Positions 14,784 to 28,135 of a DNA stretch of 64,000 nucleotides are shown one piece after another. The position numbers and the translations under genes are program-made. The first letter of the stretch is position 1, and each line of letters starts with the position of its first letter. This DNA is from Nesterenkonia muleiensis. Its GTDB lineage: Bacteria; Actinomycetota; Actinomycetes; Actinomycetales; Micrococcaceae. The stretch is taken from the NCBI RefSeq assembly GCF_003600155.1, contig NZ_QWLD01000016.1:124001-188000 (forward strand), given 5' to 3'. The notes below the pieces were generated by a model that saw nothing but the letters and a program-made list of their open reading frames with translations, did no database searches and was not told the origin of the DNA.

Positions 14784-15263
14784 TTACTGGCTGTAGGCCT
14801 CGGACAGAGAGCGCGGATCCACCGGCCCTGGGTTCTCCACCCCGAGTGAACGCGCCAATTCCTCGACCCTCCCCTTGATGTCATCGCGGATCCGCCGCAC
14901 GGCAGCCAGATCCTTTCCGGCGGGATCCTCCAGTGTCCAATCCTCATAGCGCTTGCCGGGATAGTAGGGACAGTCATCCCCGCAGCCCATGGTGATGACC
15001 GCGTCGGACTCCTGAAGCATGTCTGCTGAGAGCTCGTTGGTGCTGCGCCCGGTGATGTCGATGCCGAGCTCGGCCATGGCCTCGGCGGCAACGGGATTGA
15101 TCTGATCGGCCGGCTGGGTGCCGCCGGAGTAAACCTGGACGTGGTCGCCGCCGAGTTCGCGCAGGAACGCGGCGGCCATCTGCGAGCGCCCAGCGTTGTG
15201 CACGCAGACGAAGGTCACAGTGGGCAGGTGAGGCTGCTGTGCGGTGTCGGCTGGGGGGATCAT
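14784..15263 (-). CDS. arsC: Arsenate reductase (LMW-phosphatase type)
   Basis: 159 residues. The phosphatase-like loop is CVHNAGRSQMAAAF with catalytic Cys20 and Arg26. The GCGDDCPYYPGKRYEDWTLEDPAGK segment carries the second and further cysteines (residues ~95-100) and the general-acid Asp-Pro. This pattern matches arsenate reductases that act with thioredoxin or mycothiol. It overlaps the end of acr3 by 4 nt (ATGA), so arsenate is reduced and the arsenite exported by one operon. The C-terminal ~25 residues are a poorly conserved tail. Confidence 0.92.
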   Translation of the reverse strand: MIPPADTAQQPHLPTVTFVCVHNAGRSQMAAAFLRELGGDHVQVYSGGTQPADQINPVAAEAMAELGIDITGRSTNELSADMLQESDAVITMGCGDDCPYYPGKRYEDWTLEDPAGKDLAAVRRIRDDIKGRVEELARSLGVENPGPVDPRSLSEAYSQ

Positions 15264-16420
15264 GGCGTTCTCCTGAGGTAGGCGTCGGGGGTGGAACTCT
15301 TGGCGACAGGGCGGACAGATTGAGTCTGCGGCGGCACTGCGGTCTGGGGGAAGAAGCGGCGGGCCCAGAGGGCCACGTAGACTAGTCCCACCAAGACGGG
15401 GACTTCGATGAGCGGGCCGACCACTCCCGCCAGAGCCTGGCCGCTGGCAGCACCGAACGTGGCGATGGACACCGCGATGGCCAGCTCGAAGTTATTGCCC
15501 GCTGCGGTGAAGCTCAGCGTGGTGGAGCGTTCGTAGCCCAGCCGCAGCAGCCAGCCGATCAGCATGGAGGCACCGAAGGTCACCACGAAGTAGATCAGCA
15601 GAGGCACCGCGATCCGGGCGACGTCGAAGGGACTGCTCAGCACCTGCTGGCCCTGTAGCGCGAAGAGCAGCACGATGGTGAACAGCAGCCCGTAGAGCGC
15701 CCAAGGCCCGATCCTGGGAAGCAGTCTCGACTCGTAGGCAGCCCTGCCCATTCGGGCTTCGCCGACAGTGCGGGTGATCAAGCCGGCAGCCAGCGGGATA
15801 CCCAGGAACACCAGCACCGAGACCGTGATCGCCCAGACGGAGAACTCCGCGGAAGTGGTCTCCAGGCCGAGCCAGCCCGGCAGCAGCTGCAGGTAGAACC
15901 AGCCCAGCACCCCGAACATGAAGACTTGGAAGACGGAGTTGACCGCCACCAGCACCGCGGCGGCCTCCCGGTCCCCGCAGGCTAAGTCGTTCCAGATCAG
16001 CACCATGGCGATGCACCGGGCGAGCCCCACGATGATCAGTCCGGTGCGGTACTCCGGCAGATCCGGCAGGAAGAGCCAGGCCAGAGCAAACATGAACGCC
16101 GGGGCCAGCAGCCAGTTGATGACCAGGGAGGTGACCAGCAGCTTCTTGTCACTGACCACCTGTCCGGTCTCGTTGTAGCGGACCTTGGCCAACACCGGGT
16201 ACATCATGACCAGCAGTCCGATGGCGATCGGTACCGAGACCCCGGCAATCTCCACCGCGTGCAGCACCTGGCTCACGCCGGGGGCGACGACGGCGATCAA
16301 TAGTCCCAGCCCCATCGCGCCCAGGATCCAGACCGGCAGAAACCTGTCCAGCACGGAAAGTCGCTTCAGCACCACACCGGCATCCGATGGGGGCAAATCA
16401 GGGCGATGGGTCACGGGCAC
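15260..16420 (-). CDS. acr3: Acr3-family arsenite efflux permease
   Basis: 386 residues with about ten membrane helices. After LSVLDRFLPVWILGAMGLGL there is the Acr3 signature region, including MMYPVLAKVRYNETG and RCIAMVLIWNDLACGD, where the conserved cysteine of the fourth helix lies in GLARCIAMV. The N-terminal ~15 residues and C-terminal ~25 residues are soluble. The start is GTG at 16418-16420, with a possible alternative GTG two codons later. It is the first gene of the acr3-arsC operon and diverges from arsR over an operator region. Confidence 0.94.
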   Translation of the reverse strand: MPVTHRPDLPPSDAGVVLKRLSVLDRFLPVWILGAMGLGLLIAVVAPGVSQVLHAVEIAGVSVPIAIGLLVMMYPVLAKVRYNETGQVVSDKKLLVTSLVINWLLAPAFMFALAWLFLPDLPEYRTGLIIVGLARCIAMVLIWNDLACGDREAAAVLVAVNSVFQVFMFGVLGWFYLQLLPGWLGLETTSAEFSVWAITVSVLVFLGIPLAAGLITRTVGEARMGRAAYESRLLPRIGPWALYGLLFTIVLLFALQGQQVLSSPFDVARIAVPLLIYFVVTFGASMLIGWLLRLGYERSTTLSFTAAGNNFELAIAVSIATFGAASGQALAGVVGPLIEVPVLVGLVYVALWARRFFPQTAVPPQTQSVRPVAKSSTPDAYLRRTP

Positions 16421-16450
16421 CTCAGAGGTTGGTAGCGGACTGCCTTAAGC

Positions 16451-16503
16451 ATCGACAAACTTCGATATGCTGAGTATCGTCAAATATATCGATAGTTGTC
16501 AAT
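16451..16503. promoter_or_regulatory. Divergent arsenic operator region
   Basis: Between acr3 (start 16420) and arsR (start 16532) are two copies of the same motif: ATCGA-CAAACT-TCGAT at 16451-16466 (perfect arms) and ATCGA-TAGTTG-TCAAT at 16488-16503 (one mismatch), 37 nt apart centre to centre. One site lies close to each divergent gene. Repression of both operons by ArsR through these sites is the natural reading. Confidence 0.65.
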
Positions 16504-16531
16504 CTATTGAGCGTTCCACAGAAAGGCGCCC

Positions 16532-16930
16532 ATGACTGAGACGGCCACGCCCCCGACAACCTGCTGCTCGCCACCACCTGCACAGACCTCATTGGACGAC
16601 GACACCGCGGTGGAGCTGGCTACCCGGTTCAAGGCCCTCGGCGACCCGAACCGCCTGCTGCTGCTGGCCACCATCGCTGCCGGCGATACCTCCGAGGCAT
16701 GCGTCTGCGACCTCACCGAACCGCTGGGCCTGGGCCAGCCGACTGTCTCGCATCACCTGAAGATCTTGGTAGACGCGGGTTTCCTCACCAGGGAGAAGCG
16801 CGGCACCTGGTCCTACTACTCGGTGGTCCCGGGCACGCTCAAGAACTTGTGCCAGAGCCTCTGCGCCGAATCTGCCCTCGGCGGCATGATGGACTCCGGC
16901 GCCTCCGCACAGAAGGAGGCCTGCTGCTGA
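16532..16930 (+). CDS. arsR: Arsenic-responsive ArsR repressor
   Basis: 132 residues with a winged helix (TRFKALGDPNRLLLLATIAA, then TEPLGLGQPTVSHHLKILVDAGF and the wing LTREKRGTWSYYSVV). The arsenite-sensing cysteines are likely the CVCDL motif before the recognition helix; extra cysteines occur in TCCSPPP near the N-terminus and CC at the C-terminus. It overlaps the next gene by a TGATG junction. Its operators flank the divergent promoter. Confidence 0.95.
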   Translation: MTETATPPTTCCSPPPAQTSLDDDTAVELATRFKALGDPNRLLLLATIAAGDTSEACVCDLTEPLGLGQPTVSHHLKILVDAGFLTREKRGTWSYYSVVPGTLKNLCQSLCAESALGGMMDSGASAQKEACC

Positions 16931-17346
16931 TGACCGGAGTGCTCTTCGTGTGCGTGAAGAACCGGGGTAAGTCGCAGATGGCAGCCGGCCTGTTCGAGAG
17001 GGAGCTCGCAGAGGCGGGGAGGCCCGACGCCGTCCGGGTGAGTTCGGCGGGGACCCAGGCAGGCACCACCATCAACGCGCTCTCCGCCGAGGTGCTTGCC
17101 GAGCTAGGAGTGAATATCTCTGGCCGAAGGCCGACCCAGCTCACCGAGGAGGCGATGCGGGACGCCGGGCTCGTCGTCGTGCTGGGTGCGGAGGCGCAGG
17201 TGCCAGACGTTTATGGCGTGACCGTCGAACGCTGGGAGACCGACGAGCCCTCGCTGCGCGGCATTGACGGCCGCGAACGCATGGAGCTGGTCCGCGACGA
17301 TATCCACGCCCGGGTCAGGGAGCTCGCCGCCCGCATAGCCGGCTAA
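16930..17346 (+). CDS. Low-molecular-weight phosphatase family / arsenate-mycothiol transferase-like protein
   Basis: 138 residues of LMW-phosphatase fold. The loop reads CVKNRGKSQMAA: catalytic Cys8 is present but Lys14 stands where the Arg of the CX5R loop is expected, a change I associate with the actinobacterial ArsC1/C2-like subgroup rather than with damage. An Asp for the general acid lies in WETDEPS (Asp105). Starts at the ATG sharing bases with the arsR stop (TGATG). It is a second, different arsenate-reductase-type protein in the same island. Confidence 0.8.
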   Translation: MTGVLFVCVKNRGKSQMAAGLFERELAEAGRPDAVRVSSAGTQAGTTINALSAEVLAELGVNISGRRPTQLTEEAMRDAGLVVVLGAEAQVPDVYGVTVERWETDEPSLRGIDGRERMELVRDDIHARVRELAARIAG

Positions 17347-17439: not shown

Positions 17440-17967
17440 TCAGTCCTGGTGCGAGCGGGCGAAGGTGAGCTTCTCGCCGCGAGCCCCGTCCATCCAGATG
17501 GACTGACAGGCCTGGGCCAGCTCATCCAGTCCCTCCACGATGGTGGCGAAGACATTGCCTGGCACCCAGCCCTGATCACCGTTGATCAGCAGATTGTTCC
17601 GCCCGTAGAACACCGCCAGATCGATGATCGCTTTGGCGCCGGCCGGCTCGGGAGCCCGCACATCAGCTTCCTGCTCGTAGCCGTAGGCGGGATTGCCCAG
17701 ATCATCGGAGTCGAAGGAGAAGTAGCAGACGTCCCCGGGGATCGGAGTCACCGTGGTGTTCTCCTTGCCAGGTTCAACCGAGGCGAAGGCGGGCACCAGG
17801 TGATAGATCTCATTGCGCGCGTACTTGCCGTGATAGACCTGCCCAGACTGCGGCAGGGCCTCCCAGACGGCGGCGCAGGTGCGCGGGGCGGCGTCGTCGA
17901 GCAGTACGGCCAGGGCGGTGACCCCGCGCTTCTCCAGCGTGATGGTGAGGTACCGTGCCACTGACAC
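17440..17967 (-). CDS. DUF3830 family protein (cyclophilin-like fold)
   Basis: 175 residues: RYLTITLEKRGVTALAVLLDDAAPRTCAAVWEALP at the N-terminus and ARNEIYHLVP, then a GDVCYFSFDSDDLGNP stretch and FYGRNNLLINGDQGWVPGNVFATI. This matches the DUF3830 family, whose fold is cyclophilin-like and whose members are often found with amidases and racemase/isomerase genes. The role is unknown. The start is GTG, 8 nt after the amidase stop, so it is the last gene of the dehydrogenase-amidase-DUF3830 operon. Confidence 0.85.
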   Translation of the reverse strand: MSVARYLTITLEKRGVTALAVLLDDAAPRTCAAVWEALPQSGQVYHGKYARNEIYHLVPAFASVEPGKENTTVTPIPGDVCYFSFDSDDLGNPAYGYEQEADVRAPEPAGAKAIIDLAVFYGRNNLLINGDQGWVPGNVFATIVEGLDELAQACQSIWMDGARGEKLTFARSHQD

Positions 17968-17975
17968 CGCCGTTC

Positions 17976-19409
17976 TCAGCCCGCCGCCGAGGCGGCGTGG
18001 GGCGGCACGGGCCGGGCGAAGGCCTCTCCAGAGGCTTTTTCATAGGCACGGGCCGCGCGCAGCACCAGCTGGTCCTGAGTACGGGCACCTACGAACTGCA
18101 GTCCCACCGGCAGCCCGTCAGAGGCCACACCACAGGGCACTGAGGCCGCCGGCTGCTGGGTCATATTGAAGGGGTAGGTATAAGGGGTCCAGGAGGTCCA
18201 CAGGTCCGACTTCCACCCTAGAGGCGCCTGGCGGGTGCAGTCGAACGCCGTGATCGGCATGGTGGGGGTGACCAGCAGGTCGTACTTCTCATGGAAGGCG
18301 CCCATCAGCACCCCAAGGTCCATGCGCACCGCAGTGGCCTCCAGGAAATCCAGCGCTGTGGAGTCGGCATACTGCTCGATGCCGGCTCTGAGATCAGGGT
18401 CCACTTTGCTGAGCGCATCTGGGCCGTAGGCAGCCACCACTTTCGCTGCGCCGGTGAACCAGAGCACGTGGAAGGGCTCCACCGGGTCCTCGAACCCCGG
18501 GTCGACCTCCTCGATGACGGCACCGGCAGCCTCCAGGACCTTCACCGCCTCACGCACCAGGCGCTCCACCTCGGGGGCATTCTCGCCGAATCCGAGTGTC
18601 GGGGAGAACGCGATGCGCAGTCCCTCCACGCCATCCTCGAGCCCAGCACTGTACGAACCACTGGGCGTGGGCAGCGCATGCCAGTCCCGGGAGTCGAAGC
18701 CGGTGATGACGTCCATCAGCATCGCCGCGTCCTTCACCGTACGGGTCATCGGGCCTGCGTGAGCCAAAGTGCCGAAGGGGGAGGCCGGGAACATCGGCAC
18801 TGTGCCGAAGGTCGGCTTCAGCGCAAAGGTACCGGTGAAGGAAGCAGGGATGCGCACTGATCCGCCCGCATCAGTACCCACTGACCACGCCCCCATCCCG
18901 GCACCGACTGCCGCGGAAGAGCCTCCCGAGGATCCACCGGCGGTGGTGGCCGGGTTCCAGGGGTTGCTGGTCGGCCCGTAGCGGATGCTGTCGGTGGTGC
19001 CCTTCCAGGCGAATTCGGGGGTGGTGACCTTGCCCAGCAGCACTGCACCGGTCCCACGCAGCCGGGCTACACAGGGAGCGTCAGCGTCCCACGGCCCAGC
19101 GTCATCGATCAGGGTGGAACCGCGCAGAGTGGGCCACCCCTTGGTGATGAAGATATCCTTGATCGAGGTCGGGACACCATCGCCGATGCCCAGGGTCTCT
19201 CCTGATTTCCAGCGGGCGGCCGATTCCTCGGCTGAGGCGAGGGCTGACTCCCGGTCCACCAGCACAAAGGCGTTGAGGTCGCCGTCGCGCTCCTCGATCC
19301 GGTCCAGGGCCGCCTCGGCGGCATCCACGGGAGTGAACTCCCCGGCGGCGTAGCCCTCCACCAGCTCTGCAGCAGTCAGATCCGCGAGATCTGTCGGCGT
19401 GGTCTCCAT
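17976..19409 (-). CDS. Amidase-signature family amidase
   Basis: 477 residues. The amidase signature is complete: catalytic Lys84 in VPTSIKDIF, the cis-serine at 160/161 in AGGSSGGSSAAVGAGMGA, and the nucleophile Ser184 in GTDAGGSVRIPASF. A partner GatB/GatC is absent, so this is a free-standing hydrolase of an aliphatic or aromatic amide, ester or carbamoyl group, not the tRNA amidotransferase subunit. A strong GGGAGG precedes ATG 19407-19409. The neighbours suggest that it feeds an acid to the dehydrogenase and isomerase-like enzymes; the substrate is unknown. Confidence 0.92.
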   Translation of the reverse strand: METTPTDLADLTAAELVEGYAAGEFTPVDAAEAALDRIEERDGDLNAFVLVDRESALASAEESAARWKSGETLGIGDGVPTSIKDIFITKGWPTLRGSTLIDDAGPWDADAPCVARLRGTGAVLLGKVTTPEFAWKGTTDSIRYGPTSNPWNPATTAGGSSGGSSAAVGAGMGAWSVGTDAGGSVRIPASFTGTFALKPTFGTVPMFPASPFGTLAHAGPMTRTVKDAAMLMDVITGFDSRDWHALPTPSGSYSAGLEDGVEGLRIAFSPTLGFGENAPEVERLVREAVKVLEAAGAVIEEVDPGFEDPVEPFHVLWFTGAAKVVAAYGPDALSKVDPDLRAGIEQYADSTALDFLEATAVRMDLGVLMGAFHEKYDLLVTPTMPITAFDCTRQAPLGWKSDLWTSWTPYTYPFNMTQQPAASVPCGVASDGLPVGLQFVGARTQDQLVLRAARAYEKASGEAFARPVPPHAASAAG

Positions 19410-19504
19410 GGGTCAGTTCCTCCCTCACTCCGTATTGCGTGGACGTATCTTTATGGTGTTGATCGGCTGTCAGAGCCTCAGTCAGAACTATAGGGCCACG
19501 CCCA

Positions 19505-20500
19505 TCATGTGGAGGGCCGGGGCACATATCCCTTGGACTTGTCCACCACGTTGACCAGGCCCTCTCCGTCCAGCCAGCGCTCAGCGTTGCTGAGGAACAG
19601 CTCCGCCAGGGTATCCCGCCAGCCGTGCACATCGCCGGACATATGGGCTGCGATCATCACATTGTCCAGACCCCAGAGCGCAGACTCAGCCGGCAGCGGC
19701 TCCTGGGCGAACACGTCCAGGGAGGCGAACCCCAACGGCCCCTCCCGCAGGGCCTCGACCAGCGCCTGCTCATCCACTGAGGCGCCGCGGCCAATGTTGA
19801 TCAGATGCGCCCCGGGCTTCACCGCGGCAAGGGTGACCGGACCGATCAGCCCGGTGGTGGCAGCAGTCAGGGGGGCGGCGTTGACGATGATGTCGAACTC
19901 CCCCACGTGCTCCTGCAGGGTTTCGGAGAGCACGACGACGCCGAAGTCCTGGTCCTCGTCCCGCGCGGTGCGGCCTGCCCCGGTCACCTCGATGCCCACT
20001 GCCCTGAGCAGCCGGGCGATCTCCCGGCCGATGGCTCCGGTGCCGATCACCAGGGCCTTAGCCCCTTGAACTCGCTTGGTCTCACGGTGGTACCAGGTGG
20101 CGGCGGCCTTGTGGCGGTAATTGCCGGCGAAGTCTTTGGCCTCGGCCAGCACAGCCCCCAGCACCCATTCGGCGATGGGCCGGTCGAAGACTCCCTGCGC
20201 ATTGGTCACCACGACCTCTGAATCACGCAGGTCATCAAAGATCAGGGTGTCTACCCCTGCGGCCGCGACATGGATCCACTTCAGCCGGTCGGCCGCCGGC
20301 CATGCCTTCTGCAGCGCCCCGGAGAAGAAGTCCCAGAGGAACAGGGCGTCGGAGCCGGCAATGTCCTCAGCAAGGTGCTCGGCGTCGGTATAGCGGATGT
20401 CAGAGCGGTCAGCGATCCTGTCGAGCCCGGGAGGGGTCCGGTGCGGCGAGTCCGGGTCGGAGGGACGAAGCACCGTGATGACCGGACGAGACTCTGACAT
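19505..20500 (-). CDS. D-2-hydroxyacid dehydrogenase
   Basis: 331 residues with an NAD(P)-binding domain in the middle (GTGAIGREIARLLRAVG) and the catalytic Arg (NIGRGASVDEQAL), Glu (VFAQEPLPAES) and His (IAAHMSGD) of the family. The N-terminal portion is a short substrate-binding lobe. Reversible reduction of a 2-oxoacid is expected. It is first in a leftward operon with the amidase and DUF3830 genes, and its start is 80 nt from the divergent isomerase gene with a GntR-type palindrome between them. Confidence 0.9.
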   Translation of the reverse strand: MSESRPVITVLRPSDPDSPHRTPPGLDRIADRSDIRYTDAEHLAEDIAGSDALFLWDFFSGALQKAWPAADRLKWIHVAAAGVDTLIFDDLRDSEVVVTNAQGVFDRPIAEWVLGAVLAEAKDFAGNYRHKAAATWYHRETKRVQGAKALVIGTGAIGREIARLLRAVGIEVTGAGRTARDEDQDFGVVVLSETLQEHVGEFDIIVNAAPLTAATTGLIGPVTLAAVKPGAHLINIGRGASVDEQALVEALREGPLGFASLDVFAQEPLPAESALWGLDNVMIAAHMSGDVHGWRDTLAELFLSNAERWLDGEGLVNVVDKSKGYVPRPST

Positions 20501-20528
20501 GGGTGCTACATTAGGAACTCAATCTGCA

Positions 20529-20542
20529 GATTGTCAACAATC
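20529..20542. promoter_or_regulatory. GntR-type operator 1
   Basis: GATTGTCAACAATC is a perfect inverted repeat (GATTGT/ACAATC, 2-nt centre) and is flanked by CTGCAG on both sides. It sits in the divergent region between the hydroxyacid dehydrogenase and the first isomerase gene. The TTGTNNACAA core is that of FCD-type GntR regulators, and an identical copy lies before the gntR gene itself. Confidence 0.7.
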
Positions 20543-20580
20543 CTGCAGCACATGTTCCCGCCACACGTGAGGGGTCCACT

Positions 20581-21513
20581 GTGACGCACTTCCACAGCAC
20601 ACATCCCGGCGGCACAGACACTCCGCTGGCAGTGCCAGTGGGCACCGTTGTGCCCTACGACATGGCCCTGGACCGGGAACTTCGGCAGTTCTCGCGGGAC
20701 CGCTACGGGTTCGAGCAGTTGGACCTGCTGTTCACCCGCACTCCGTTCGAACCGCTGGCGGTGACCGTCGAACAGGCGCGGGAGATCTCCCGGCCCGAGC
20801 TGATCACCGCTGCAGTGCGTGCGGTCTCCGCCGCAGCCCCGGCCGGCTATATCTACGGCTGCACCTCAGGCAGCTTCGTGCGCGGACTGGCCGGCGAGCG
20901 CCGGTTGACCGAGGCGATCTCCGAAGCAGGCAGGGAAGCGGCTTCGGCCGCCGCGTTCGCCGTGGACACCGCCGGCGCCTATGAGTCGCCCTCCCCCGCG
21001 CCCGATCCCTCCCAGCCGCCGGCCGCCCTCACCACCTCCGGGGCGCTGTTGGAGGCTGTCCACGCCCTAGGAGCGCGAAGTGTCGCTGCGGCCACCCCTT
21101 ACGACCAGGCGGTCGGTGCTCTCTTCGGACGGTTCTTCGCCGAGGCCGAGGTGGAACTGGTGCACACTGCGAATCTGGGGCTCAGCGGCAGGATCTGGAC
21201 TGTCCCCTGGGAGGACACCTACGAGTTAGTCCGCCGCGCCGACTCCCCTGACGCCGATGCGGTGCTGATCTCCTGCACCAACCTTCCCACCTACGAGGTG
21301 CTTGATCAGCTGGAGCAGGACCTCGGCAAACCGGTCATCTCGGCCAATCAGGCCACGGTATGGGCTGCGCTGCGGCAGGCCGGCCGGGAGTACTTCGGCC
21401 CTGGCGCAGCGCTGCGCCGAGCATGCCTGGGTGAGAACGCCCGCGGAGCCGGTCCGGACACGGCCTGTGCGGCCGCCCGGTCATTCGACTCCCAAGGAGC
21501 AGCACACCCATGA
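20581..21513 (+). CDS. Maleate isomerase / Asp-Glu racemase-like protein, two-cysteine form
   Basis: 310 residues of the maleate cis-trans isomerase/arylmalonate decarboxylase family. Both catalytic cysteines are present, Cys94 in IYGCTSGSF and Cys232 in LISCTNLPTY, as in maleate isomerase and Asp/Glu racemases. An insertion of about 18 residues rich in Pro/Ser (134-150) precedes the TSGALLEAV turn, which is unusual. The start is GTG 20581. It overlaps the next gene (its homologue) by 4 nt. With the amidase and dehydrogenase nearby it probably handles a dicarboxylate derived from an amide. Confidence 0.85.
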   Translation: MTHFHSTHPGGTDTPLAVPVGTVVPYDMALDRELRQFSRDRYGFEQLDLLFTRTPFEPLAVTVEQAREISRPELITAAVRAVSAAAPAGYIYGCTSGSFVRGLAGERRLTEAISEAGREAASAAAFAVDTAGAYESPSPAPDPSQPPAALTTSGALLEAVHALGARSVAAATPYDQAVGALFGRFFAEAEVELVHTANLGLSGRIWTVPWEDTYELVRRADSPDADAVLISCTNLPTYEVLDQLEQDLGKPVISANQATVWAALRQAGREYFGPGAALRRACLGENARGAGPDTACAAARSFDSQGAAHP

Positions 21514-22280
21514 ACAACCCCGTCACCGTCGGCATCCTCTACCCCGGCCATGCCGCCGAGGATGACTATCCTGCCTTCGAAGCCGTCCTGGAGGCCCACC
21601 GCGCCCCACCCGCTGTCCACCTGCCGGTCAGCATCACCACTATCGGGGTGGATGAGCACACCCCTGAGGCGCTCCTGGAGACCGGCTCCGCTGCCCGGCT
21701 CGCCGAGGGCGCCGGCCGACTCCTGCAAGAACAGCCGGTCGACTCGATGATGTGGGCCTGCACCTCCGGGAGCTTCGTCTACGGGTGGGAAGGTGCTCAT
21801 CAGCAGGCCCAACAGTTGTCAGAGGCATCGGGCCTTCCGGCCTCCTCGACGTCACTGGCCTTCGCGCGCGCCCTGGAGGCTCTCGGCGTCTCCACCGTGG
21901 CGGTGGCGGCGTCGTACCCGGAGGAGCTGGCCTCCTATTTCCGTAAGTTCCTGCGGGCAGGCCGGATCGAGGTGGTAGCCTTTGCCGCCCATGGGGTCTT
22001 CACCGCCCACGCCGTGGGCCGGATGGGAGGCAAGGAGATCATGACCATGGTCCAGGCGGTGGACGTGCCGGAGGCCGAGGCAGTGCTGGTGCCGGACACT
22101 GCCATGCACTCCCTGCTGTGGATCGAATCGCTCGAACAGGCGTTGGGCAAGCCGGTGCTGACCGCCAACCAAGTCACCATCTGGGAGGGCATGCGGACCG
22201 CCGGGGTCGCCCAGCCGCAGCTTCCCAGACTGGGCTCGCTGTTCAGCGCCGAGGGCGCCGCCGAAGAAGACACCGCCTAA
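21510..22280 (+). CDS. Maleate isomerase-like homologue lacking the second catalytic cysteine
   Basis: 256 residues, same family as the gene before it. Cys84 (MMWACTSGSFVYGWEG) is kept, but the second catalytic position reads VLVPDTAMHS, with Asp196 where the partner has Cys. Loss of the second cysteine rules out a normal two-base isomerase/racemase mechanism, so a decarboxylase-like, single-cysteine or non-catalytic subunit role is possible. The 4-nt overlap (ATGA) with the two-cysteine copy suggests they are produced in a fixed ratio and may form a heteromer. Confidence 0.82.
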   Translation: MNNPVTVGILYPGHAAEDDYPAFEAVLEAHRAPPAVHLPVSITTIGVDEHTPEALLETGSAARLAEGAGRLLQEQPVDSMMWACTSGSFVYGWEGAHQQAQQLSEASGLPASSTSLAFARALEALGVSTVAVAASYPEELASYFRKFLRAGRIEVVAFAAHGVFTAHAVGRMGGKEIMTMVQAVDVPEAEAVLVPDTAMHSLLWIESLEQALGKPVLTANQVTIWEGMRTAGVAQPQLPRLGSLFSAEGAAEEDTA

Positions 22281-22285
22281 AATTT

Positions 22286-22299
22286 GATTGTCAACAATC
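22286..22299 (+). promoter_or_regulatory. GntR-type operator 2
   Basis: A second exact GATTGTCAACAATC, located 5 nt after the isomerase stop and 17 nt before the gntR ATG. It is identical to the operator between the two divergent units, indicating autoregulation and co-control by the encoded GntR protein. Confidence 0.7.
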
Positions 22300-22316
22300 C
22301 CTGAATCGGAGCGTCC

Positions 22317-23003
22317 ATGTCCAGTCCCCAGCCGTTCACACGGGTCAACCGCGAATCCACCGCCGGTCTGATCACCCGTCAGCTCCGTGAGGCGATCATG
22401 TACGGCAGGCTGGCTCCCGGGGCCCAGCTCTCCGAGGCTGCCCTGGCGGCCCAGTTCGGGGTGAGCCGGGGGCCGCTGCGTGAGGCCACCCAGCGTCTGG
22501 TCCAGGAAGGGCTGGTCCACGCTGAACCCAACCGGGGACTGTTCGTCAAGGAGCTCAACGACCACGAGATCAAGGATCTCTACGCTGCACGGATCGCCAT
22601 TGAGACTGCCGCCGGACGCAGCATCATCCGTGAGCAGCGGCAAGAGGCCGTGACCGCACTGCGGGCCGCCTACGAGGCCATGCAGACCGCGGCGGAGAAA
22701 GGCGACCTGGAGGAGCTCTCCGATGCGGACCTGCATTTCCACGAGGTGCTGGTCGCCAGCGCCGGCAGCCCGCGGCTGCACCGGATGCACCAGACCCTGA
22801 TGGTGGAGACCCGGATGTGCCTGACCGCGCTCCAAGGCACATACCGCGACCCGGAGGATCAGGTGGCCGAGCACCGCCGGATCGCCGAGGCCATCGCCTC
22901 CGCGGATGCAGAAGGCATGGTCGAGGCGGTGGAGTCGCATATGCAGGAGGCGCTGGACAGGCTGAGCCACAGCCAGGGTGCTGCGCCGAAGGCCAAGGTA
23001 TAG
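22317..23003 (+). CDS. GntR-family (FCD domain) regulator
   Basis: 228 residues. The winged helix covers 15-75 (LITRQLREAIMYGRLAPGAQ, SEAALAAQFGVSRGPLREATQRLVQEGLV). The FCD domain follows (EIKDLYAARIAIETAAGRSI, LHFHEVLVASAGSPRLHRM, HRRIAEAIASADAEGMVEAVESHMQEAL) with the metal/ligand histidines. Operators with the matching TTGTNNACAA core lie ahead of the gene and between the divergent catabolic units. It likely represses them until a carboxylate inducer binds (inference). Confidence 0.93.
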   Translation: MSSPQPFTRVNRESTAGLITRQLREAIMYGRLAPGAQLSEAALAAQFGVSRGPLREATQRLVQEGLVHAEPNRGLFVKELNDHEIKDLYAARIAIETAAGRSIIREQRQEAVTALRAAYEAMQTAAEKGDLEELSDADLHFHEVLVASAGSPRLHRMHQTLMVETRMCLTALQGTYRDPEDQVAEHRRIAEAIASADAEGMVEAVESHMQEALDRLSHSQGAAPKAKV

Positions 23004-23005
23004 GG

Positions 23006-24196
23006 GTGACCGGCGTGCCATCCCAGGCCACGCGCCCGCACTTCGGGGATGGGCCGTGGGACAGACTGCTCGATGAGCTGGCCCATGACGACTCCATTCT
23101 GGAGCAGACCGTGCGGAGGATCCGCGCGACCGTTCCTGGATACGACGATGTTCCCACCGAGGCACTCCAGGCCTCAGTGCGCAGAAACCTCGCGCTGAGC
23201 ATCCGCACGATTCGCACCGGCGCCCAACCCCGTCCTGAGGATGTCGACGAAGCCGATTCCTTGGCCGCGGAGCGGCACGCCCAGGGTGTGCCGATCGGCA
23301 GTATGCTCGCTGGGTTCCGGATCTGCATGTCCGGAATCCTGGACAAGCTGGTGCACCGTGCACCGTTGGCCGGGATTCCCACCGATCAGGTGCTGGACTC
23401 CTCGATCCTCTTATGGTCCTTGGGTGATGCCTTCTCCTCACGCGCAGGAGTGGTGTACCAGGAGCGGGAAGTCTCACGGATGCTGGCAGACTCCTCCCGC
23501 CGGACCGAATGGATCGGCAATGTGGTGGCCACCCAGATGGATCCGGCAGAACTGCTGCGCGGGGCGGCTCTCTACAACGTGCCCACCACAGAGCCGGTGT
23601 GCGCCGTCGTCGTCAACTCCACCGCCGAGCAGAGCCGGCAGCGGCTGCACCGATGGGCGGACTCGACCGGGACGGAGCTGCTGACCGCCGTGCGCGCCGG
23701 CTCTCTGGTCGGGATCATGCTGGGCACTCCTGTGCCTTCTGTCCAACCCAAGGGCATCACCGTGGGCATCGGTCATCTGGTGACCCTGGAGTCACTGCCC
23801 AAGTCGTTCGAAGCGGCCTCGCTGGCGCTCAAGGGTGCTGAATGCACAGGGCAGACCGGCGCGGTGGACGTGGAGCGGCTCTCCTGGCGCCTGGCCGTTC
23901 ATACCACTCCGGAAGTCACCTCCATGCTCTGCGAGCAGTATCTGCAGCCATTGGAGGACCAAGGAGCCTTCGGGGAGAACATGCTCGAAGCAGTGCAGGC
24001 CTACCTGCGCCATCGGATGAACATCCCGGCAGCGGCCCAGAGCATCCCGGTGCACGTCAACACGCTGCGCTACCGCCTGGAGCGGTTCAGAGCGTTGGTC
24101 GGTGCTGATCTCGGTGACGTCGACACCTTGGTGGAACTGTCGTGGGCCCTGGCTGCACGCGCTGGAACTGGGAACAACCACCCTCCCCATTCGTAG
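23006..24196 (+). CDS. PucR/CdaR-type transcriptional regulator
   Basis: About 396 residues from GTG 23006; GTG 23015 is an alternative with a slightly better AGGGG site. It has an N-terminal sensory region (residues ~1-160), a central GGDEF-like/CdaR linker, and the C-terminal PucR helix-turn-helix: YLRHRMNIPAAAQSIPVHVNTLRYRLERFRALVG. It begins 2 nt after the gntR stop. It reads into the GntP permease gene and the 3-hydroxybutyrate module, so it is a good candidate activator of those genes (inference). Confidence 0.85.
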   Translation: MTGVPSQATRPHFGDGPWDRLLDELAHDDSILEQTVRRIRATVPGYDDVPTEALQASVRRNLALSIRTIRTGAQPRPEDVDEADSLAAERHAQGVPIGSMLAGFRICMSGILDKLVHRAPLAGIPTDQVLDSSILLWSLGDAFSSRAGVVYQEREVSRMLADSSRRTEWIGNVVATQMDPAELLRGAALYNVPTTEPVCAVVVNSTAEQSRQRLHRWADSTGTELLTAVRAGSLVGIMLGTPVPSVQPKGITVGIGHLVTLESLPKSFEAASLALKGAECTGQTGAVDVERLSWRLAVHTTPEVTSMLCEQYLQPLEDQGAFGENMLEAVQAYLRHRMNIPAAAQSIPVHVNTLRYRLERFRALVGADLGDVDTLVELSWALAARAGTGNNHPPHS

Positions 24197-24370
24197 CCAG
24201 CTACAAAATTCTGCACTGACCATTGAACGCACAGATGTAGCGCCGCACGCCTCATTGGCAGCATGCTGAACGTTAATGAGATCCCGATCACACTGTCGAC
24301 GCTGATCGGTTCCGCAACCGCATTCTGTTCTGCTGGCGTCCTGACGCCCACTACCCTCCGAGGAGAACCC

Positions 24371-25786
24371 ATGACCGTGGCCATTATCGGCATCATTGCC
24401 TCATTGGTGCTGCTGATCACCCTGGCCTATCGAGGGGTTCCTGTGATCATCGCCGCCCCGATAGCATCCGTCGTTGCTGTGGTGTTCTCAGGAGCGCCCA
24501 TTCTCGCCTCCTACACCGAAATCTTCATGCCCGCGATGGCTGACTTCGTCGGCAGCTGGTTCCCGGTGTTCCTCACCGGCGCGATCTTCGGTGTGCTGAT
24601 GACCATCACCGGCTACGCGGAGAGCATCGCCCGCACAGTCACCCAGCTGGTCGGCGCCCGGAGCGCCATCGCTGCCACCGTGGTCACCTCGGCTCTGATG
24701 ACCTACGGCGGCATCAGCTTGTTCGTGGTCGCCTTTGTGATGTACCCCCTGGCACGGGAGCTGTTCCGCGTGGCCGATATCCCACGCCGGCTCATTCCCG
24801 CCACCATCGCGCTGGGCATCTTCACCTTCACCATGACAGCCCTTCCCGGCAGTCCCCAGGTGCAGAACATCATCCCCGGCCAGTTCTTCGACACCGGGTC
24901 CTTCGCAGCCCCAGGCATCGGCCTGCTCGGGGGTCTGATGATCTTCGGACTCGGGATGACCTGGCTGGAGTACCGGCGGCATGCCCTGATGAAGAAGGAG
25001 GAGCGCTTTGACAGCCCGCAGAGCCGGCAGATCATCGGCGGCCCCTCTGACGACGGCGCAGCCGGCGAGGTCAAGACCCTGGCACCGCCTCACCAGCTGG
25101 TCCCGTTCCTGCCGCTTCTGACCGTCTTCGCAGTCAACTTTGCCTGCACCCTGGTGATCTTCCCCCGGCTGGACTGGAGCTACCTGCAGGAAGACCAGTT
25201 CGGCGGAATCGTGATGGACTCACGGGCCGGGCTGTGGGCGGTGCTGCTGGGCATCGTCTCTGCGATTCTGCTGATCCTCGCCCTGAACTTCCGGAACCTG
25301 AACGAACTGCGCATCGGCTTCACCGACGGCGTGAAACGCTCCATGCTGCCGATCTTCAGCACCGCCTCCGAGGTCGGCTACGGCGCGGTGGTCGCCTCGG
25401 TCGCAGCATTCGCGGTAGTGCGTGACTCAGTGTTCAACATGGGCCTCAACGCCCTGTGGACCTCGGTGATGACCGTCTCCATCACCGCTGGCCTGACCGG
25501 GTCCTCATCAGGAGGCATGACCATCGCCCTCAACGCCTTGGGTGAGGACCTCCGGGAACTGGCGGTCAATGATGGAGTCAGCCTGGAAGCCATGCACAGG
25601 CTCACCGCGATGGCCGCCGGCGGACTCGACACCCTCCCCCACTCAGGTGCCGTGGTCACCCTGCTGATCGTCTGCGGACTCACCCACCGGCAGGCCTATA
25701 AGGACCTGGGCATCGTGACCATCGGGGCCCCGGTGCTGACTGTGCTGATCCTGGGCGGGCTGGTCACCGCCGTCGGAAGCTTCTGA
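24371..25786 (+). CDS. GntP-family permease
   Basis: 471 residues, 12-14 hydrophobic helices. MTVAIIGIIASLVLLITLAYRGVPVIIAAPIASVV begins the family pattern, with GGISLFVVAFVMYPLARELFRVADIPRRLIPATIALGIFTFTMTALPGSPQVQN in the middle. The family imports gluconate and related carboxylates. ATG 24371 follows GAGGAGAACCC, so the longer frame upstream is unused. Its place just before the hydroxybutyrate dehydrogenase and CoA-transferase genes suggests a short-chain hydroxy acid as substrate. Confidence 0.9.
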   Translation: MTVAIIGIIASLVLLITLAYRGVPVIIAAPIASVVAVVFSGAPILASYTEIFMPAMADFVGSWFPVFLTGAIFGVLMTITGYAESIARTVTQLVGARSAIAATVVTSALMTYGGISLFVVAFVMYPLARELFRVADIPRRLIPATIALGIFTFTMTALPGSPQVQNIIPGQFFDTGSFAAPGIGLLGGLMIFGLGMTWLEYRRHALMKKEERFDSPQSRQIIGGPSDDGAAGEVKTLAPPHQLVPFLPLLTVFAVNFACTLVIFPRLDWSYLQEDQFGGIVMDSRAGLWAVLLGIVSAILLILALNFRNLNELRIGFTDGVKRSMLPIFSTASEVGYGAVVASVAAFAVVRDSVFNMGLNALWTSVMTVSITAGLTGSSSGGMTIALNALGEDLRELAVNDGVSLEAMHRLTAMAAGGLDTLPHSGAVVTLLIVCGLTHRQAYKDLGIVTIGAPVLTVLILGGLVTAVGSF

Positions 25787-25840
25787 TCCAGGATTCAGCA
25801 GCCCTGCGCCGGATCACCCCACACCACTCAAGGAGAAACG

Positions 25841-26617
25841 ATGACCTCGAACCCCACCTCTATCTTTTCCGCACACACGCTGCAAGGCCGCCGCGCTCTG
25901 GTCACCGGCGGAGCCTCCGGCATCGGAGCCGCCTGCGTCAGGGCTTTCGCCGAAGCCGGTGCCACGGTGACCGTCGCCGACCTGGACGGCGAGGCAGCAC
26001 GCCGGGTGGCCGCAGAAACCGGAGGTGAGGCCTGGGCGGTTGACCTCGCGGACACCACCGCCCTGGACGAGCTCAGCCTGGACATCGACATTCTGGTCCA
26101 CAACGCCGGAATTCAACGGGTCTCCGCCATCGAAGAGTTCGATCCCGAAGCCTGGCGGCTGATCCACCGGCTGATGGTCGAGTCCCCGTTCCTGCTGACC
26201 CGGGCGGCGCTTCCAGGGATGTACCAGCGGGGATTCGGCCGGATCATCAACCTCTCATCGGTCCACGGACTGCGTGCCAGCGCCTTCAAATCAGCCTATG
26301 TGGCGGCCAAGCATGCTCTGGAAGGGCTCTCCAAGGTCACCGCATTGGAGGGCGCACAGCACGGAGTGACCTCCAACTGCATCAACCCCGCCTATGTCCG
26401 CACTCCCTTGGTGGAGAAGCAGATCGCCGACCAGGCCCGGATCCACGGCATCGCGGAAAGTGAGGTGGTGGAGAAGATCATGCTCACCGAGGCTGCTGTG
26501 AAACGGATGGTCGAACCCGAAGAGGTCGCTTCACTGGCGCTCTGGCTCGCCTCAGACGCCGCCGGTATGGTGACCGGAGCCTCCTACACCATGGACGGCG
26601 GCTGGAGCGCAAGCTGA
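25841..26617 (+). CDS. D-3-hydroxybutyrate dehydrogenase (SDR)
   Basis: 258 residues of classical short-chain dehydrogenase: TGGASGIGAA cofactor loop (about 22-31), a long catalytic region with NLSSVHGL and YVAAKHALEG (Tyr/Lys pair in YxxxK) and the typical C-terminal VTGASYTMDGGWSA. The overall sequence resembles 3-hydroxybutyrate dehydrogenases (HNAGIQ, IEEFDPEAWR, KIMLTEAAVKRMVEPEEVA). It oxidises (R)-3-hydroxybutyrate to acetoacetate with NAD. Ribosome site AAGGAG precedes ATG. It lies between the permease and CoA-transferase genes, a logical order. Confidence 0.92.
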   Translation: MTSNPTSIFSAHTLQGRRALVTGGASGIGAACVRAFAEAGATVTVADLDGEAARRVAAETGGEAWAVDLADTTALDELSLDIDILVHNAGIQRVSAIEEFDPEAWRLIHRLMVESPFLLTRAALPGMYQRGFGRIINLSSVHGLRASAFKSAYVAAKHALEGLSKVTALEGAQHGVTSNCINPAYVRTPLVEKQIADQARIHGIAESEVVEKIMLTEAAVKRMVEPEEVASLALWLASDAAGMVTGASYTMDGGWSAS

Positions 26618-26666
26618 ATCAGACCCCCACACCACCTCAGATCGAACGCATTCACAGGAGGATACG

Positions 26667-27458
26667 TTGAGTTTCGATAAGACCATGGCAAGCGCAGCCG
26701 AGGCGGTTGCCGACATACACCACGGAGCCTCGCTGGCAGTCGGCGGGTTCGGCCTCAGCGGAAACCCGATCCAGCTGATCGAAGCCCTGTTGGAACAGGG
26801 CGCCTCAGACCTCTCCGTCGTCTCCAACAACTGCGGGGTCGACGGCTGGGGGCTGGGTGTGCTGCTCGCCGCCGAGCGGATCACGAAGATGACCTCCTCC
26901 TATGTGGGGGAGAACCGCGAATTCGCCCGCCAGTACCTTGAAGGAGAGCTGGAGCTGGAACTGGTCCCACAGGGCACACTGGCGGAGAAGATGCACGCCG
27001 GCGGGGCGGGAATACCGGGTTTCTACACCCGCACCGGAGTCGGCACCCAGGTCGCCGATGGCGGAATACCAGTCAGGTACGACGCCGCAGGCAACGTGGT
27101 CGAGGAGTCCGCACCGAAGGAGGTACGCCGCTTCCGCACCCATGAGGGAGAGGAGCTGGAGTACGTCCTGGAAGAGTCCATCGTCACCGACTACTCTCTG
27201 GTGCACGCCCTGCGCGGGGACCGCCACGGCAACCTGGTGTTCAACAAGTCCGCCAGGCAGTTCTCCCCGGCTGCGGCGATGTCAGGACGGGTCTGCATCG
27301 CCCAGGTGGAGGAACTGGTGGAACCGGGACAGATCGATCCCGACCAGGTGCATCTTCCTGGGGTGTTCGTCCACCGCATCGTCGAAGTGGGCTCCGAGAT
27401 CGACAAACCGATTGAACGGCGCACGGTGACCACCACCGAGTCCGCAGAGCAGGCCTGA
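26667..27458 (+). CDS. scoA: 3-oxoacid CoA-transferase subunit A
   Basis: 263 residues of the family I CoA-transferase alpha subunit: [67 protein letters not shown] and the [22 protein letters not shown]-like core. It begins at TTG 26667 with a strong AGGAGG 5-8 nt upstream. It pairs with scoB 21 nt downstream to move CoA between succinyl- or acyl-CoA and acetoacetate, activating the product of the dehydrogenase. Confidence 0.93.
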
Positions 27459-27478
27459 GCCGCAGAAGGAGGAACACC

Positions 27479-28135
27479 ATGGAGACGACAACTTCCCAAG
27501 GCTGGACCAGGGACCAGATGGCCGCACGCGCAGCCCAGGAGCTGGTGGACGGATCCTACGTCAACCTAGGCATCGGCATGCCCACCCTGATCCCCAATCA
27601 CATTCCGGCAGGACGCACCGTGGTGCTGCAGTCAGAGAACGGAATACTCGGCGTGGGGCCCTATCCCACAGAGAACAACGTCGATCCCGACCTGATCAAT
27701 GCCGGCAAAGAGACGGTCACCGTCAACCCCGGTGCCGCGTTCTTCGACTCAGCGCTGAGCTTCGGCATGATCCGCGGCGGCAAGATCGACATCGCGGTAC
27801 TGGGCGGGATGCAGGTGGCGGCCAACGGAGACCTCGCCAACTGGATGGTCCCGGGCAAGATGGTCAAAGGGATGGGCGGGGCGATGGACTTGGTGCACGG
27901 TGCCAAGAAGGTCATCGTGCTGATGGACCATCTCGCCAAAGACGGTTCGGCCAAGATCCTTCCCCGATGCACGCTGCCGCTGACCGGCCGGGCAGTGGTG
28001 GACCAGATCATCACCGACCTGGCCGTCATCGAGGTCACCGGCTCCCCGGAGGAGCCCAGGCTGCGCCTGGTGGAGACCGCCCCCGGTATCAGTGAGGCTC
28101 AGGTGCGGCAGTCCACCGGGGTTGAGCTGGTCTGA
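27479..28135 (+). CDS. scoB: 3-oxoacid CoA-transferase subunit B
   Basis: 218 residues. The conserved catalytic glutamate is Glu53 in [49 protein letters not shown] is the family core. ATG 27479 follows AAGGAGGA. With scoA it forms the SCOT-type enzyme. Just after the stop is a hairpin region (28150-28186) that can serve as the operon terminator, followed by the palindromes of the next TetR gene. Confidence 0.93.

Follow-up and report, generated by a model that had tools for sequence, protein, structure and literature searches.

A divergent gene module with two maleate-isomerase-like proteins in Nesterenkonia muleiensis and its possible part in the use of ectoine-type compounds

Which substrate is handled by an uncommon gene set that combines a protein of the DUF3830 family with an amidase and two maleate-isomerase-like proteins is the question raised by the window considered herein, that is, the whole stretch of 64,000 nt from Nesterenkonia muleiensis (contig NZ_QWLD01000016.1, positions 124,001 to 188,000). 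The module in question spans positions 17440–23003 of this window, with genes for the DUF3830 protein, an amidase-signature hydrolase and a D-2-hydroxyacid dehydrogenase running divergently from those for two paralogous proteins, termed ISOA and ISOB, and for a regulator of the GntR-FCD type. Judged from sequence comparisons, these six genes may be the central part of a regulon for the breakdown of ectoine or 5-hydroxyectoine, or else of a closely similar cyclic amidine or N-acyl-diamine, a reading to which we assign a probability of approximately one half. It draws on observed gene families, on their conservation and co-occurrence and on an operator that they share, with the enzyme steps filled in by guesswork. 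The outcome is a defined gene set with its operator, its regulator and a testable substrate, and it suggests what DUF3830, a name that was not found in the literature searched, might do.

Gene content and recurrence of the module

The gene families named for this locus in an earlier note, made from the sequence alone, were all recovered at their places by open reading frame checks and profile searches. On the reverse strand, the gene for the DUF3830 protein, which has a cyclophilin-like fold (17440–17967; PF12903, 222.6 bits, cut-off 26), is separated by 8 bases from that for the amidase (17976–19409), the product of which scores 314 bits with PF01425 and 701 bits with NCBIfam PRK06169 (cut-off 506). 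The dehydrogenase gene (19505–20500; PF02826, 2-Hacid_dh_C, 150 bits) lies on the same strand. Facing these, on the forward strand, are the genes for ISOA (20581–21513), which is maleate isomerase/EutA-like, and its paralogue ISOB (21510–22280), the reading frames of which overlap by 4 bases; they match PF17645 (Amdase) with 79 and 76 bits, respectively. Both proteins score far below the cut-off of 318 bits for EutA (TIGR02990; 88.7 bits for ISOA and 99.3 bits for ISOB), and profile searches place them far below the cut-off for arylmalonate decarboxylase as well. The regulator gene (22317–23003, forward strand; GntR 73 bits, FCD 91 bits) begins just beyond the span of 17440–22280 given in the earlier note, within which the other five genes fall.

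With regard to distribution, DUF3830 is encoded by 22 of 297 genomes of the order, and ISOB, searched for with an alignment query at E ≤ 1e-45, is present in 21 of the 297, these being the DUF3830 genomes minus G084. One family of class III aminotransferases, which accompanies the module in relatives, is found (E ≤ 1e-145) in 23 of the 297, comprising all 21 genomes that hold both DUF3830 and ISOB, plus G113 and G251. When named genomes were searched with ISOB, at least 580 relatives came up, of which the best 80 were kept, all with actinobacterial titles; with 20 more, these give the 100 related loci referred to throughout. The closest ISOB relatives amongst the matches listed come from Nesterenkonia and Garicola, with 62–76 % identity. 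Amongst 67 loci that span 18 kb or more, that were chosen by ISOB alone and that, like the set of 100, contain close relatives and hence are not independent, the amidase family recurs in 63, ISOA in 60, DUF3830 in 56, the dehydrogenase in 54 and the GntR gene in 52, with all five together in 32. As these partner genes recur in loci picked with ISOB alone, the gene set is more than a chance grouping. The earlier note was right to see here an uncommon but coherent set of catabolic genes, two products of which resemble maleate isomerase; its remark that no characterised pathway has this exact set also agrees with our literature search, in which none was found.

An operator shared with unlinked genes

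Each of the two regulatory gaps in the window contains the palindrome ATTGTYRACAAT. Exact copies of ATTGTCAACAAT occupy positions 20530–20541, in the divergent gap between the dehydrogenase and ISOA genes, and positions 22287–22298, before the GntR gene, and when up to one mismatch is allowed the window has 3 matches, where 0.07 would be expected. The palindrome, as GATTGTCAACAATC, is present in the dehydrogenase–ISOA gap both in the window and in all six loci of the Nesterenkonia group. Across the 3.68 Mb window genome, ATTGTYRACAAT occurs at six places, with none for the reversed control. One of these lies between unlinked genes for a succinate-semialdehyde-type aldehyde dehydrogenase and a class III aminotransferase, which are 69 and 70 % identical to the module-linked families (in G071 the palindrome lies between the corresponding genes as GATTGTTGACAATC), and a further copy stands at the start of a gene for a YdiJ-like dehydrogenase, 68 % identical to the module-linked family.

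The related loci display the same arrangement. The 100 loci contain 180 operator sites in 1.93 Mb (reversed control, 0), and 161 of these lie no more than 330 bases upstream of a gene from one of the module families. Sites precede 63/81 copies of the dehydrogenase gene, 36/44 of the aminotransferase, 57/89 of ISOA, 39/97 of ISOB, 23/56 of the aldehyde dehydrogenase and 11/26 of EhuB, an importer component considered below; they are rare before DoeA (2/27), the carrier of the major facilitator superfamily (MFS; 3/32) and the YdiJ-like gene (2/29). The operator is present in 77 of 79 loci with a GntR gene and in none of the 14 Streptomyces loci that carry an IclR-type gene (IclR_C domain) in its place; it is also found in six of seven loci that possess neither. 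All 21 module genomes have it, and, among the sites listed, every one is at the module in 13 of 15 module genomes.

Since one operator joins the module parts, a common regulator over them is likely, and the evidence for a shared regulon is good. The GntR-FCD protein is the presumed binder of both operators in the window and, encoded adjacent to the enzymes, presumably runs the regulon, which in the window genome would also span the unlinked class III aminotransferase and semialdehyde-type aldehyde dehydrogenase, together with the YdiJ-like D-2-hydroxyacid dehydrogenase. Separately, five genomes of one genus (G145, G173, G243, G254 and G028, genus g19) have two palindrome copies approximately 790 bases apart with no module, which perhaps belong to a different FCD regulon.

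Linked genes and the probable substrate

Ectoines are made by many actinobacteria, and the window genome encodes ectoine synthase. The additional families most commonly encountered in the 100 loci are aldehyde dehydrogenase (52) and class III aminotransferase (49), followed by parts of an ATP-binding cassette (ABC) importer (33, 23 and 20), an MFS carrier (31), a MocR-like aminotransferase (26), an M20 deacylase (25), an M24 hydrolase (21) and a YdiJ-like dehydrogenase (20). The nearest characterised counterparts are the eut/doe and ehu clusters for catabolism of ectoine and 5-hydroxyectoine in Sinorhizobium meliloti and Ruegeria pomeroyi; related loci hold EhuABCD-like importers 46–58 % identical to those of S. 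meliloti, a DoeA-like hydrolase of approximately 45 % identity, an aldehyde dehydrogenase, a class III aminotransferase and EutA-like proteins. The module differs from these clusters in adding DUF3830, the amidase, the D-2-hydroxyacid dehydrogenase and a second EutA-like protein, and in having the GntR-FCD operator rather than EnuR.

The importer gives one indication of the substrate. In L106, EhuA, EhuB and EhuC all exceed their NCBIfam cut-offs, and the module-adjacent EhuB scores 245 bits in L123 of Streptomyces, 258 in L100 and 268 in L177, compared to a cut-off of 190.9 and to 228 for a Sinorhizobium EhuB. In all 24 module-adjacent EhuB proteins, a Glu, three aromatic residues and an Arg are kept at the putative ligand positions, which we take to be the ectoine-binding residues of S. 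meliloti EhuB. This conservation makes it very likely that the regulon in relatives would import ectoine-type compounds. The operator precedes ehuB in each of the nine loci that hold both EhuB and the GntR gene (two of these, L026 and L106, apparently represent a single contig, as do L027 and L055 within the wider set), and in 2 of 17 loci without the GntR gene.

Candidate catabolic enzymes are linked to the module as well. DoeA-like proteins occur in 27 of the 100 loci when searched for with S. meliloti queries, and an M24 protein of L105 has ectoine hydrolase DoeA as its best NCBIfam match, at 431 bits against a cut-off of 613. One DoeA-like protein aligns over its full length with the solved ectoine hydrolase DoeA, and Glu is kept at position 255, presumably a functional residue of that enzyme. 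The module-linked aldehyde dehydrogenase has succinate-semialdehyde dehydrogenase as its best match, albeit below cut-off, and is 49 % identical to the S. meliloti counterpart over partial length. In the S. meliloti ectoine cluster itself (L205, 4697–6474), no gene is listed at the expected place of the aldehyde dehydrogenase; two overlapping open reading frames are found there, one of which matches this family over part of its length. Taken together, assignment to ectoine is probable where the relatives are concerned, but for the window genome it is less certain.

A number of observations weigh against that assignment. No DoeA-like protein is found at any score in the window genome or in G071, just 5 of the 22 DUF3830 genomes have one above 380 bits, and none of the 297 genomes reaches the curated cut-off, the protein of L105 being the best. 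The highest EhuB score in the window genome is 156 bits, again below cut-off (Ueh was not sought). DoeB is present in none of the 100 loci at E ≤ 1e-5 (the window genome beyond the loci was not searched for it), EutB and EutC occur in one locus each with S. meliloti queries, and the class III aminotransferase shares just 31 % identity with its S. meliloti counterpart. As for the operator, two of its six places in the window genome, one where a class I aminotransferase gene begins and one within an unrelated gene, have no obvious fit, and it is also found in 45 of the other 276 genomes. Finally, G113 possesses a DoeA-like set together with the D-2-hydroxyacid dehydrogenase, the aminotransferase and the aldehyde dehydrogenase; its genome is without DUF3830 and ISOB, and the 20 kb fetched around the set are without amidase and ISOA. 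Two importer candidates were dropped. A distant EhuB-like protein encoded 28 kb from the module in the window genome scores 156 bits and has Ser at one ligand position, and an ABC ATPase encoded close to the module in Nesterenkonia loci, considered as EhuA, is probably generic, with the window copy 40 % identical to that group.

As the DoeA-like set of G113 exists without DUF3830 and ISOB, the presence of DoeA does not always require the core. Given also that the window genome has the core without DoeA, there are two front ends to be considered, and these seem to feed common later steps; both may act on ectoine, or one of them on hydroxyectoine or another analogue. This distribution, in which the window genome and G071 have the core but not DoeA, G113 has the DoeA-like set but neither DUF3830 nor ISOB, and the aminotransferase, aldehyde dehydrogenase and dehydrogenase families are common to both sets, also accords with a core that degrades some other substrate. 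The latter could be an N-acyl, carbamoyl or lactam form of a 2,4-diamino or 4-amino-hydroxy acid, with the importer and end steps shared with ectoine, and with ectoine itself degraded only via the DoeA-like set. In Streptomyces, however, the core adjoins an EhuB of 245 bits that retains the putative ligand residues, with no DoeA-like gene listed beside it, and we regard such a separate substrate as possible but, on balance, unlikely. The route put forward in the earlier note, in which a small dicarboxylic acid amide undergoes hydrolysis, isomerisation or decarboxylation and then reduction, is very improbable: the names of the families (amidase, 2-hydroxyacid dehydrogenase, maleate isomerase/arylmalonate decarboxylase fold) suit it, as do MFS carriers at some loci, whose family includes tricarballylate and other organic-acid symporters (best match ProP, below cut-off), but the Ehu importer and the linked class III aminotransferase and semialdehyde-type dehydrogenase do not fit a simple dicarboxylic amide. 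Together with the ectoine-hydrolase-like genes of relatives they point instead to an ectoine-type diamino compound, and ISOB is without the second Cys.

Degradation of ectoine or a close analogue by the module would bear on a topic for which actinobacterial recycling has so far been proposed from homology alone. Putative ectoine clusters of Gram-positive bacteria, Actinomycetota included, have been put forward on the basis of EutD homologues and are termed provisional by their authors (PMC13188858). A cluster described there is one of Bacillales with PucR and EutBCD; the word amidase is absent from the main text of that article, and no mention of DUF3830 was found in the part of it available. 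A hydroxyacid dehydrogenase gene of undefined role has been noted in some known ectoine clusters (PMC5924519).

Candidate enzyme steps

The two isomerase-like proteins share the fold and the first Cys of the Asp/Glu racemase superfamily, which includes maleate isomerases, arylmalonate decarboxylases and EutA. ISOA possesses both cysteines, C94 and C232, which are invariant in 32/32 aligned rows (the window plus 31 of 34 listed loci), and so has the two catalytic residues of the maleate isomerase type. ISOB lacks this pair: C84 is kept, and D196 replaces the second catalytic Cys in 39/39 rows (the window plus all 38 listed loci), aligning on Cys188 of arylmalonate decarboxylase. The predicted structure of ISOB (predicted local distance difference test, pLDDT, 92) has the arylmalonate decarboxylase/maleate isomerase fold. 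In PMC4996985, Cys188 is described as the sole proton donor of arylmalonate decarboxylase, and racemases of the superfamily are said to have their second Cys where the decarboxylase has Gly74. Set against this arrangement, Cys/Asp is an unusual pair in the superfamily, and with an invariant Asp in place of the second catalytic Cys, ISOB is probably not a standard isomerase. An ISOB-type Cys/Asp pair is also encoded on a Nitratireductor plasmid (L051, 8770–9540), where the neighbours are alcohol dehydrogenase and sugar-type genes.

The amidase retains K83, S159 and S183, which we take to be the catalytic Ser-Ser-Lys residues, in 17/17 rows (the window plus 16 of 38 listed loci), and would be a candidate deacylase. 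For DUF3830, a solved relative is 3KOP from Arthrobacter (271 bits). The model of the window protein is weak (pLDDT 73); its best fold match is 3KOP, followed by the Pictet-Spenglerases McbB (Z 17.4) and KslB (Z 17.2), and by cyclophilins at Z of approximately 14. McbB and KslB are larger proteins of approximately 20 % identity, and such fold likeness by itself shows no function. Pictet-Spenglerases form rings through imines, and with this in mind it is conceivable that DUF3830 opens a cyclic amidine ring, making it a candidate ring-opening or C–N bond enzyme.

From these elements, a path for ectoine-type compounds can be sketched. DUF3830 would open the ring where DoeA is missing and the amidase would then remove the acyl group, such that the two together may replace ring opening and deacetylation. 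The aminotransferase and aldehyde dehydrogenase would convert the terminal amine of the resulting diamino acid to a carboxylate, so that the product would be aspartate or 3-hydroxyaspartate. A branch for hydroxylated or stereoisomeric compounds might fall to ISOA and ISOB along with both D-2-hydroxyacid dehydrogenases, which would here stand in for EutA, EutB and EutC. The last three are needed for 5-hydroxyectoine, and their precise activities are stated to be unknown (PMC8739950). In its entirety, i.e. as a DoeA-independent actinobacterial pathway for ectoine or 5-hydroxyectoine in which DUF3830 opens the ring, the amidase deacylates, and a cofactor-free Cys/Cys and Cys/Asp pair with dehydrogenases replaces EutABC, this sketch is doubtful and is offered tentatively. 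Were it true, it would provide a first function for DUF3830 and a new catalytic pair for the Asp/Glu racemase superfamily.

Neighbouring genes and other DUF3830 contexts

Next to the module, positions 14784–17346 hold two low-molecular-weight-phosphatase-like frames of ArsC type (the second identified by eye), a carrier of the SBF family (ACR3-type) and an ArsR regulator, likely an arsenic set. On the other side, positions 22817–28135 contain a PucR-type regulator, a permease without Pfam match, a 3-hydroxybutyrate dehydrogenase and coenzyme A (CoA)-transferase subunits A and B, which looks like a separate set for use of 3-hydroxybutyrate or ketone bodies. These genes beyond GntR were dropped as module parts because they are not conserved beside it: the PucR, permease and CoA-transferase genes are found in none of the 67 related loci, and the 3-hydroxybutyrate dehydrogenase in one.

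Elsewhere, DUF3830 adjoins class V aminotransferases, flavin adenine dinucleotide (FAD) oxidoreductases and M24 hydrolases. A search of plasmids returned one record with the window DUF3830 as query and nine with a divergent DUF3830. A Deinococcus plasmid (L049, 3077–9402) carries DUF3830 with three M24 peptidase-like genes, a class V aminotransferase and an FAD oxidoreductase, and a second Deinococcus has the same set. The divergent DUF3830 of G084 (L178, 3675–4088), set apart from the module kind, is inside an allantoin-type cluster, comprising allantoinase AllB (535 bits), an aspartate-carbamoyltransferase-like protein and an amino acid kinase, followed by a TIM-barrel (triose-phosphate isomerase barrel) isomerase, a 3-hydroxyisobutyrate-dehydrogenase-like protein and a thiamine pyrophosphate enzyme.

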